The position numbers and the translations under genes were made by a program. The notes beneath the pieces were generated by a model. It made no database searches. It had not been told where the DNA came from and saw only the letters and a program-made list of their open reading frames with translations. DNA of 64,000 bases, from the NCBI GenBank assembly GCA_003134785.1, contig PLCN01000017.1, positions 248,001-312,000 of the forward strand, written 5' to 3'. This document shows, in pieces, positions 12,120 to 15,263 of this stretch; the stretch's first letter is position 1, and the number at the start of each line of letters is the position of its first letter. This DNA comes from Spartobacteria bacterium. Lineage in GTDB: Bacteria; Verrucomicrobiota; Verrucomicrobiia; Chthoniobacterales; UBA10450.

Positions 12120-12477
12120 CCGTCGGCAAACTCGCGTCCTTCCACGCCCGCAAGCCACCAGCGAGCGAGCGGACGTTCTCATATCCCATCTCCTGCAAAC
12201 TCTCCGCCACGAGCGCGGAACGGCTCCCGCCGCCGCAATAACAAATGATCGGCTGTTTCACATCGGGAATCTGCTCTTCGATTTCCAGTTCGATCACACC
12301 GCGGCTCAGGTGCGTGGCTCCTTGCGCGTGGCCCTCGCTCCAATCGCTCTCTTCCCGCACGTCGATCAAAATTGCTTCGCCGCTTTCCGCTTGTTTGCGC
12401 GCGTCAGCCGGCGAGATCTCGGTGACGTGCTGTTTCGCTCGCGCGACAAGTTTTTGAAAGCGATTCGGCTGTTCCAT
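12115..12477 (-). CDS. rhodanese-domain protein
   Basis: The 120-residue product is a single rhodanese module. ILIDVREESDWSEGHAQGATHLSRG (residues 36-60) gives the N-terminal half, and the active-site loop with the Cys is in IICYCGGGSRSALVAESL (about 84-101). The C-terminal end is YENVRSLAGGLRAWK. Such stand-alone rhodaneses move sulfane sulfur in the cytoplasm. It faces the ABC-2 permease gene convergently. The extreme C-terminus is encoded inside the palindromic repeat at 12057-12119. Confidence 0.92.
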   Translation of the reverse strand: MEQPNRFQKLVARAKQHVTEISPADARKQAESGEAILIDVREESDWSEGHAQGATHLSRGVIELEIEEQIPDVKQPIICYCGGGSRSALVAESLQEMGYENVRSLAGGLRAWKDASLPTV

Positions 12478-12546
12478 TGCGCGAGCCTCGGGCCAACCGA
12501 ACGAAGATCAACCGAATGAAACATTGCGGCGGGGAGCGGCGATTCT

Positions 12547-12670
12547 GGGGAGCGCAGGCTGCCAGCCTGCCCGGCTCGGCAGCTTGCCGAGACGCTGTTT
12601 GGCGAGATCACGCGATAAGCTGGCGTTCGCGGTAAGAGTGTTGCCGGCAGGCTGGCAGCCTGCGCTCCCC
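12547..12670. repeat. 124-bp inverted-repeat element, perfect 25-bp ends
   Basis: GGGGAGCGCAGGCTGCCAGC at the left end (arm 12547-12571) is matched exactly by the complementary right arm 12646-12670. A smaller stem around CTCGGCAGCTTGCCGAG lies inside. No ORF of interest is present. This looks like a non-autonomous, MITE- or REPIN-like repeat between the rhodanese and caspase genes. Confidence 0.8.
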
Positions 12671-12738
12671 AGATCGAGCTTCGCCGCGCACTCGGTAATT
12701 GGTAGATTGCCGTCGCAGCCTCGAACAGGGTTTCGCGA

Positions 12739-13866
12739 ATGAAGCGTCAACTCACGATCTGGTCACTCATTCTCGCCGCCCTTCAGTTTTTCACTCCGTG
12801 CTCGGCCTCGGCCAAAGATCTCGGTTGGCAACCGGACAAGACCTGGGTCTTCGTGGTCGGCGCCTTGAATTGGAAGCACCGCGAAATGTTCGGTTCCTTT
12901 CCGGTCAAGAATCGCCGCGACGCGACGCTCGTCGATTTCTTCAAGCAAAGCGGAGTCCCGGAAACGCAGATTGTTTATCTCCAGGATAAACAGGCCACGC
13001 AACAGCGGATCGACAGCGCGTTCGCCACGGAACTGAAGAAGCTGCGATCCGACGATTTGTTGATCGTCTACTATTGCGGTCACGGCTCCAAGTCGGAAGA
13101 GGGCAACGACGTTTACCTCGCTTCCTATGATGCGGGCGACGAGGGCGTCTCGGGCTGGTCCATCAATTCGATCCCCGAGAAAATAAAATCCGACAGCAAA
13201 TGCGCGCGCGTGCTCTGGCTGCTCGACTGCTGCTACTCCGGCCAGGCCGCGCTCGCGCTGACGAAACAAAAAGGCCGTCCCGCTTACGCGTGCGTGACCT
13301 CATCCTCCGCCAGCGAATCTTCGACCGAACACTGGACTTTTTCGGATGCGCTACTCGACAGCCTCCGCGGAGTCGCCTACGTCGATCTCAATCACGATGG
13401 CTCGGTCACCCTAGCGGAATTCGCTACTCACCTCAGCGCCGATATGAGTCTTGCCGAGGAGCAGCTCTCGACTTTCGCCACGACCGAGGGGTTCGACGCG
13501 GAAATGGTTTTGGCGCGGGCCGAGCCCCTGGCTGATCCCAAAATCGGCGAGCGCGCGAAAGCTCGGGACTCGGAGGGCGGCTGGTACGCCGGTCGCATCG
13601 TTGAAGCTCGCGACGAGGAATTCAAAATTCACTTCATCGGTTACGAGGATGATGAAGACGTCTGGTTGGCCGCCGCGGACTTAAAACCGATCAAGCCAGT
13701 TCAATATGCGATCGGGACACAGGTGGAAGTGCGCTGGAAGAAGCGGTGGTATCCAGCCACGATCCTGCAAGTGAAAGACGGAATTCACCTCATCCACTAC
13801 ACCGATTACGAAGCCAAATGGGACGAGTGGGTGCCATCGAAACGAATTCGTAATCCGAAATCGTAG
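12739..13866 (+). CDS. secreted caspase-family peptidase with EF-hand and two Tudor-like domains
   Basis: The 375-residue protein has a signal peptide (residues 1-25) and a caspase/metacaspase domain (about 35-210). The catalytic His115 lies in YYCGHGS and Cys165 in LLDCCYSG. A canonical EF-hand loop at 216-227 (D-x-N-x-D-G-x-V-x-x-x-E) fits calcium control, which is known for metacaspases. Two Tudor-knot/MBT-like barrels follow at about 266-320 and 324-372, each with the GWYAGRIVEA or RWYPATILQV opening and a D/E-W ending. The Tudor-like part is unexpected in an exported protein. It is flanked by palindromic repeats on both sides and has no operon partner. Confidence 0.88.
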   Translation: MKRQLTIWSLILAALQFFTPCSASAKDLGWQPDKTWVFVVGALNWKHREMFGSFPVKNRRDATLVDFFKQSGVPETQIVYLQDKQATQQRIDSAFATELKKLRSDDLLIVYYCGHGSKSEEGNDVYLASYDAGDEGVSGWSINSIPEKIKSDSKCARVLWLLDCCYSGQAALALTKQKGRPAYACVTSSSASESSTEHWTFSDALLDSLRGVAYVDLNHDGSVTLAEFATHLSADMSLAEEQLSTFATTEGFDAEMVLARAEPLADPKIGERAKARDSEGGWYAGRIVEARDEEFKIHFIGYEDDEDVWLAAADLKPIKPVQYAIGTQVEVRWKKRWYPATILQVKDGIHLIHYTDYEAKWDEWVPSKRIRNPKS

Positions 13867-13922
13867 CGCGGAATTCTCCCCGCCCAGAGTTCAACAAAGA
13901 CCGGGGCGATTTGGATCTTCTG

Positions 13923-14011
13923 TAGCGGCAGTCTATGACCGCCGAGAGATTTGACCACGCGACAGAGCGGCAGCACGCAAAAAAGAGAACGGCGGTCATA
14001 GACCGCCGCTA
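13923..14011. repeat. palindromic repeat of the GTAGCGGC-GTCTATGACCGCCG family
   Basis: Arms of 22 bases (13923-13944 and 13990-14011) match with one mismatch. Relatives are at 44692-44753 (full) and 48661-48685 (one arm). It separates the caspase gene from the convergent permease gene. Confidence 0.75.
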
Positions 14012-14042
14012 AAGCGGAAGGCTTTCAGCCGTCCTCCAGCTT

Positions 14043-15263
14043 TCACTCGTAACGCAACGCGTCGATCGGGTCGAGCTGCGCGGCTTTGCGCGCGGGATAA
14101 AACCCAAAGAAAACGCCGACGCCTGCGCTGACGAGAAAGGCCAGGATGATCGAAGTGGGCGAAATGAGTGACGGCCAATTCTTCATCGCAGCGATTATTT
14201 TCGCGGCCGCGATGCCGGTGATGATTCCGATAATGCCGCCGACCGCACTCAGCGAAATAGCCTCAATCAAAAACTGAGTGAGGATATCGCGCCCGTGAGC
14301 GCCCACCGCCATGCGGGTGCCGATCTCGCGCGTGCGCTCGGTGACACTGACCAGCATGATGTTCATGATCCCGATTCCTCCGACAACCAGCGATATAACC
14401 GCGACGCCCGCAAGCAATGCGGTCATGGTCTCGGTTGTGGCCGTAGCCGCCGCGGCGATTTCTTCCTGGTTCCTCACGGTAAAATCATCGTCGCGCCCCG
14501 CGCGAATGTTATGGCGCTGCCGGAGCAGCTCGATGATTTGCTGCTGCGCTGGCGCCAAGTCGTGCGGGCTCGCGACCTGCGCGTTGATATTTCGGAGCGT
14601 CGTTCCTCCCCCGAGTACTCGTTTCATCGCGCTGGTGTACGGCATGATCACGATGTCGTCCTGGTCGGTCCCCTGCGAACTCAATCCTTTCGGCGTGAGA
14701 ACACCTGTGATCTGGAAAGGAACATTTTTGACTCGCAAAACCTGGCCGACGACGTCGTCGCTTCCGAAAATCTGCGTCGCGGTCGTGCGGCCAACCACAC
14801 AGACTTTGTTTGCGCTCCGCACATCCTGGTCGGTGAAAGGCGCACCGTCGGCGAGCGCCCATTGCCGAAGATCGAAATATTCGGCCGACTCGCCGTAGAT
14901 GCGGGTGAACCAGTTTTGATTTCCCGACGCGACCTGCGCGGTCGAAACCACTTCCTCGCTCACCAGCGTGACCGCCGGGATTTCGCGGCGAATGGCTTCG
15001 GCGTCGTCAATCTTGAGTGTGCCCGCTCCGCCCCAACCGGTGCGGATTCCGCTCGCCGTAGTGCTCCCGGAAAAAATCAAAATCACGTTCTCGCCCAAGC
15101 CGGCGATTTGCGCTTCCACCTGCGACTTCGCGCCGTTGCCGATGCTCACCATCGCGATCACCGCGCCGACTCCGATGATGATGCCGAGCGCCGTCAAAGC
15201 GGAGCGCAACTTGTTTCGGCGCAGAGCCCGCAGCGCGATCTTGAAGGTGGATCCAATTCTCAT
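14043..15263 (-). CDS. MacB-like ABC transporter permease (FtsX type)
   Basis: The 406-residue protein has an N-terminal membrane helix (LRRNKLRSALTALGIIIGVGAVIAM), a large periplasmic MacB_PCD domain, and three C-terminal helices with the FtsX signature (LVSVTERTREIGTRMAVGA). It is the separate membrane half of a MacB exporter, while E. coli MacB fuses ATPase and permease. It overlaps the ATPase gene by four bases (15260-15263). Together with the MacA-like adaptor it should drive export of a peptide, lipid or drug-like molecule through an outer-membrane channel that is not encoded here. Confidence 0.93.
   Translation of the reverse strand: MRIGSTFKIALRALRRNKLRSALTALGIIIGVGAVIAMVSIGNGAKSQVEAQIAGLGENVILIFSGSTTASGIRTGWGGAGTLKIDDAEAIRREIPAVTLVSEEVVSTAQVASGNQNWFTRIYGESAEYFDLRQWALADGAPFTDQDVRSANKVCVVGRTTATQIFGSDDVVGQVLRVKNVPFQITGVLTPKGLSSQGTDQDDIVIMPYTSAMKRVLGGGTTLRNINAQVASPHDLAPAQQQIIELLRQRHNIRAGRDDDFTVRNQEEIAAAATATTETMTALLAGVAVISLVVGGIGIMNIMLVSVTERTREIGTRMAVGAHGRDILTQFLIEAISLSAVGGIIGIITGIAAAKIIAAMKNWPSLISPTSIILAFLVSAGVGVFFGFYPARKAAQLDPIDALRYE

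Follow-up and report, generated by a model that had tools for sequence, protein, structure and literature searches.

A predicted exported caspase-fold protein with an EF-type loop and two Tudor-like barrels in Chthoniobacterales

The window analysed here, a stretch of 64,000 nucleotides from a Spartobacteria bacterium assembly, encodes a caspase-like protein in which a signal-peptide-like N-terminus, a caspase-fold domain, an EF-type loop lying within that domain, and two Tudor-like barrels are joined in one chain. The combination of signal-peptide-like start, caspase domain, EF-type loop and paired barrels is confirmed as an observation.

Gene, domain layout and relatives

The gene occupies positions 12739-13866 (+), where an open reading frame running from ATG to TAG encodes 375 amino acids plus stop. 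Its standing as a real gene is supported by the open frame, by orthologues and by purifying selection. It provides both the sole Tudor-knot match and the sole C14 match in the 4.39 Mb genome assembly. An initial annotation, made from the letters alone, had proposed a signal peptide, caspase residues His115 and Cys165, an EF-hand-type loop at residues 216-227 and two Tudor-knot/MBT-like barrels, and this layout holds up. The two catalytic residues lie in YYCGHGS (His115) and LLDCCYSG (Cys165), the loop reads DLNHDGSVTLAE and has the canonical 12-residue form between helices, and the barrels are supported by Pfam matches and an AlphaFold2 model. The N-terminus is signal-peptide-like as judged from composition only.

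The signal-peptide-like segment, residues 1-25 (12739-12813, +), has a basic n-region followed by a hydrophobic stretch and, in most of the ten sequences compared, an A-x-A-like end. Its composition is consistent with a signal in 10/10 sequences, and it evolves much faster than the remaining protein (Nei-Gojobori). These features suggest that the caspase-like protein is exported. Attachment as a lipoprotein through Cys21 was considered and rejected, because FTPC departs from the typical lipobox and the relatives do not conserve the Cys.

Orthologues with the same layout are present in six of the seven other genomes of the genus and in two genomes of another genus in the family; one more occurs in a genome of another family in the order, at 38-39% identity. 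All parts of the protein are kept in the nine relatives, including the one at 39% identity. The named relatives are Spartobacteria/Chthoniobacterales and Verrucomicrobia metagenome-assembled genomes. When substitution rates were estimated by the Nei-Gojobori method, the caspase part gave dN 0.07-0.21, dS 1.2-1.5 and dN/dS of about 0.06-0.15 (against L002, L004 and L008), and the barrels gave dN 0.10-0.14, dS of about 1.1-1.2 and dN/dS 0.09-0.12 (against L002 and L004); for the barrels against L008, dN was 0.32 and dS was saturated. The low dN/dS values therefore mark a maintained gene under strong purifying selection, as opposed to a chance reading frame.

Among 388 sampled Verrucomicrobiota genomes, 63 contained a C14 match and three a Tudor-knot match, the three being the two sampled caspase-Tudor carriers and one short broken frame. 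The caspase-Tudor architecture is therefore rare in the phylum. Scans of viral collections, run both with the full-length protein and with the barrels by themselves, returned no relatives, and none were found in phage records. Plasmid records yielded no full-length relative, the matches consisting of caspase-only proteins and two Deinococcus Tudor-only proteins. A scan of genome contigs with two short peptide patterns, of a kind that would miss distant relatives, recovered no orthologues beyond those already known.

Caspase domain, EF-type loop and Tudor-like barrels

The caspase-fold domain extends over residues 30-262 or thereabouts (12826-13524, +) and contains catalytic His115 (13081-13083) and catalytic Cys165 (13231-13233). 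It is defined by its Pfam C14 match, by model superposition and by invariant motifs. Peptidase_C14 (PF00656) scores 28.4 bits against a cut-off of 21.4, and the C14 profile matches 10/10 sequences at E values up to 0.01. The GHG and D-C-C-[YH]-S-G motifs, with H115 and C165, do not vary among the ten sequences. For the NCBIfam model NF047832 (caspase, EACC1-associated type) the score is 68.1 bits, below its curated cut-off of 140.

A full-length AlphaFold2 model built from the ten sequences has a pLDDT of 76, with poor loops at residues 42-53 and 115-129; pLDDT falls under 50 in the latter, that is, around His115. Residues 33-260 of the model superpose on legumain, caspase-3/6/8, MALT1 and metacaspases with Z 13.5-15.8 and rmsd 3.0-4.1 Å over about 180-195 residues, and the predicted alignment spans the p10-equivalent region of caspase-6, up to caspase-6 residue 290. 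A candidate S1 acid is Asp163, which precedes the catalytic Cys by two residues and corresponds in the alignment to the Asp of the equivalent motif in metacaspase MCA2; Asp61, just ahead of where the alignment begins, is a possible second one. Meta- and orthocaspases cleave after basic residues (PMC5756287, PMC6426788), and the sequence points to a similar P1 preference here. We infer that the protein belongs to the prokaryotic C14 group of caspase-fold cysteine proteases and acts by proteolysis.

The EF-type calcium loop DLNHDGSVTLAE, residues 216-227 (13384-13419, +), lies in the C-terminal half of the caspase domain, where the model places it between helices 200-209 and 225-239. Loop positions 1, 3, 5, 6 and 12 (D, N, D, G and E) are invariant in 10/10 sequences, and the other loop residues vary. 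Pfam EF-hand models score just 12-13 bits where their cut-offs are about 25, and for this reason we speak of an EF-type loop and not of an EF-hand domain. Since the loop is also single and unpaired, its calcium affinity may be low; any calcium dependence of the protein is a prediction from its sequence. Loops of this type occur at the same place after the catalytic Cys in two of 17 other verrucomicrobial caspases, a sample biased to the best-scoring caspases, namely L043 (ADHDNDGRVSLTD) and L048 (VDANEDGYVTLTE), and the EF-type loop thus recurs within the caspase family. An EF-hand motif has been described in seven archaeal orthocaspases (PMC6426788), and characterised orthocaspases autoprocess without calcium (PMC5756287).

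Tudor-like barrel 1, residues 268-320 approximately (13540-13698, +; model strands 272-311), matches the Pfam MBT model at 27.4 bits (cut-off 22). Barrel 2, residues 325-371 (13711-13851, +), matches both Tudor-knot (36.2 bits, cut-off 20.8, E 5.6e-9) and Agenet (32.5 bits, cut-off 27, E 1.2e-7). Structure prediction of this region had been suggested in the initial annotation as a check on the barrels, and AlphaFold2 applied to residues 262-375 alone returned two of them with a mean pLDDT of 84.6; their relative orientation in this model is not to be trusted (pTM 0.54). Barrel 1 superposes on Tbtudor (VIA Z 10.5) and on MRG2, SMN and PHF20 (about 9.4-9.7). Barrel 2 superposes on the UHRF1 TTD (Z 10.2), with a range of 9.8-10.2 for UHRF1 and MRG15 together, and also matches PHF1 and FXR2. 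The top superpositions, barrel 1 with Tbtudor and barrel 2 with the UHRF1 TTD, have rmsd 0.9-1.7 Å over 54-55 residues, and the full set has Z of about 9-10.5 and rmsd mostly 0.9-2.2 Å over about 50-56 residues. When both barrels were compared together with a solved tandem Tudor, the superposition was poor, with a Foldseek rmsd of about 10-15 Å.

In a profile alignment with Tudor 1 of PHF20L1, residues Y24, Y29, F47, W50 and Y54, which we take to be its cage positions, align on W333, Y338, Y354, Y357 and W361 of barrel 2. All five positions in barrel 2 are therefore aromatic by this alignment, and a fold lacking an aromatic cage, which the initial annotation had named as grounds for abandoning its reading, is not what is found. 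W333, Y338 and Y354 are invariant in 10/10 sequences, whereas Y357 is replaced by F in one sequence and W361 by D in one, the other nine keeping Y and W; all five cage aromatics are kept in nine of the ten and four of the five in the 39%-identity relative. Barrel 1 has a partial cage of Y283, F299 and Y302; its two remaining cage positions are S278 and E306, where more distant relatives carry W and D. Modified basic side chains are the likely ligands of the barrels.

Chromosomal site and proposed mechanism

Throughout the genus the caspase gene has a rhodanese gene on one side and the end of a MacB-type permease/ATPase/HlyD set on the other, and the adjoining genes encode a SurA-like PPIase, PdxA, a DUF2238 protein and an ABC-2 permease. 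In a second genus it is found at the same site in the opposite orientation. At the site corresponding to 12477-14043, no caspase lies between adjacent rhodanese and MacB genes in the family genomes L062, L063, L065, L067-L072, L075, L078 and L080, and in L082, from the genus itself, both the rhodanese and the caspase genes are absent. As the gene is missing from many close relatives, its function is dispensable, and we regard it as an old but dispensable occupant of one conserved chromosomal site. The genes to either side are on the opposite strand, so the caspase gene is a solitary one with no identifiable operon partner; no nearby partner, substrate or regulator gene points to one pathway.

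The gene is also flanked by one element from each of two genome-wide palindromic repeat families. In the inverted repeat at 12544-12673, a GCAGGCTGGCAGCCTGC palindrome is enclosed by 28-nt arms of perfect complementarity. The core of this family (with GCTCC) is present in 82 exact genome copies, most of them paired minus/plus at a spacing of about 100 bases, and the pattern read backwards has 0 copies in the genome; the family resembles REP-doublet (REPIN-type) elements. The second inverted-repeat family (GGCGGTCATAGACCGCCGCTA), represented at 13920-14014, has 132 exact genome copies, many of them in minus/plus pairs some 40-70 bases apart, and its reversed pattern likewise has 0 copies.

The reading that we favour, and consider probable, is that of a Sec-exported C14 caspase-fold protease which cuts after basic residues, is stabilised by calcium and is kept by its barrels on peptides whose basic side chains are modified. 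The protein would be exported unfolded via Sec, and in the calcium-rich periplasm or outside the cell its EF-type loop would bind calcium and so stabilise the active fold. The His115/Cys165 dyad would then cleave after basic residues, with the Tudor barrels holding the protease on peptides that carry modified basic side chains. The support computed here comprises the gene, the architecture, the model fold, the conserved dyad, the EF loop, the cage and selection; for the architecture and the proposed ligand we follow Kaur et al. 2018 (PMC5906684).

One step of this scheme could differ while the remainder stands, in that the EF-type loop may be a structural part of the caspase fold and no calcium switch. 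Outside the cytoplasm there is usually enough calcium for such a loop to stay occupied, the Pfam EF-hand scores fall below cut-off, and the loop recurs in two of the 17 other verrucomicrobial caspases. Set against these points is the invariance of every coordinating position in all ten sequences while other loop residues vary, and we judge a purely structural role to be quite possible, though short of an even chance. The barrels might similarly be plain protein-protein or intramolecular modules, masking the active site until cleaved, for example, with no recognition of modified side chains in a protease otherwise as proposed. We find this somewhat doubtful, as the conservation of the barrel 2 cage exceeds what the fold core needs, but it draws on the lack of aromatics at two cage positions of barrel 1 in the genus, on the poor joint superposition with a solved tandem Tudor (in a model whose orientation, at pTM 0.54, is untrusted) and on the precedent of orthocaspase MaOC1, which is active only once its p20 domain is cut free (PMC5756287).

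A more radical departure would make the protein an immunity or self-killing protease of the abortive-infection type, like many bacterial caspases. A weak match to the PADLOC model 'caspase' PDLC02987 (40.5 bits) and the patchy presence of the gene at one chromosomal site would fit such a role. It is nonetheless very improbable, since a signal-like N-terminus takes the place of a cytoplasmic sensor, no partner defence gene is found among neighbours encoding the PPIase, PdxA, DUF2238, ABC-2 permease, rhodanese and MacAB-like proteins, and phage records and viral collections hold no relatives.

The exported, barrel-held protease that we favour also has a more specific form, which we think unlikely: a calcium-gated extracytoplasmic enzyme whose full cage would recognise methylated lysine or arginine in secreted or murein-linked peptides and steer the cutting to them. 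If true, bacteria would possess, outside the cell, an equivalent of a methyl-mark reader joined to a protease. According to a published hypothesis, the histone-mark readers of eukaryotes arose from secreted bacterial barrels that bound modified peptides (PMC5906684), and the literature searched contained no test of this ancestry on a protein. The caspase-Tudor family offers a small single-copy case of 375 residues in which the cage is complete, the catalytic domain can serve as readout and an EF-type loop is built in, and its chromosomal site lets close relatives with and without the gene be compared.

Comparison with known systems

In the classification of Kaur, Iyer, Subramanian and Aravind (2018, PMC5906684), 'chromo-like' takes in Tudor, MBT, Agenet and Tudor-knot. 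The paper describes bacterial chromo/Tudor-like domains as consistently located in secreted proteins, counts fusion to a caspase-like peptidase among their commonest architectures, lists EF-hands among the linked domains and proposes methylated-lysine-like moieties in murein or matrix peptides as ligand. The initial annotation had called the export of Tudor-like domains odd and the combination new; neither view survives this report, in which consistent secretion and the common caspase fusion are already described, and its suggestion of a cell-wall or surface ligand for the barrels agrees with the prediction made there. Our protein shares with the fusions of Kaur et al. a caspase-like peptidase and tandem chromo-like domains in one chain, and also the retention of a subset of cage aromatics, here five of five in barrel 2 and three in barrel 1; the composition of its N-terminus would fit the signal peptide of those fusions. 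The fusions named there come from planctomycetes, cyanobacteria, bacteroidetes and chloroflexi, whereas ours is verrucomicrobial, although the supplement of that paper may list relatives. Their EF-hand is a further linked domain, and here the EF loop lies inside the caspase domain.

With orthocaspases and prokaryotic metacaspases (C14; PMC3501461, PMC5756287) the protein has in common the caspase fold, the His-Cys dyad and the acid before the catalytic Cys. Extra C-terminal domains are common in that group too, and N-terminal helices that are possibly signal peptides are known from it, but the usual extra domains are different (WD40, TPR, FGE-sulfatase and NACHT), and the word Tudor is absent from PMC3501461. 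Archaeal orthocaspases likewise pair a caspase homologue with an EF-hand motif; Tudor barrels go unmentioned in the corresponding text of PMC6426788, which also gives no position for the motif. The Deinococcus agenet-domain proteins WP_027462321.1 and WP_225523872.1 share a signal-like N-terminus followed by two Tudor/Agenet-like repeats and differ in having no caspase domain and another C-terminal part. In the plasmid records, loci L026:2375-3202 and L027:2099-2968 are Deinococcus genes for proteins with a signal-like N-terminus, two Tudor/Agenet-like repeats and a C-terminal part of no assigned family, one of them annotated 'hypothetical protein'.

The protein thus joins a kind already on record, that of secreted bacterial caspases carrying chromo-like barrels. 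Added here are a Chthoniobacterales branch, from a phylum unnamed in the text of the key section of PMC5906684, the placement of the EF loop within the catalytic domain, and a constant chromosomal site at which the gene is present, inverted or absent.
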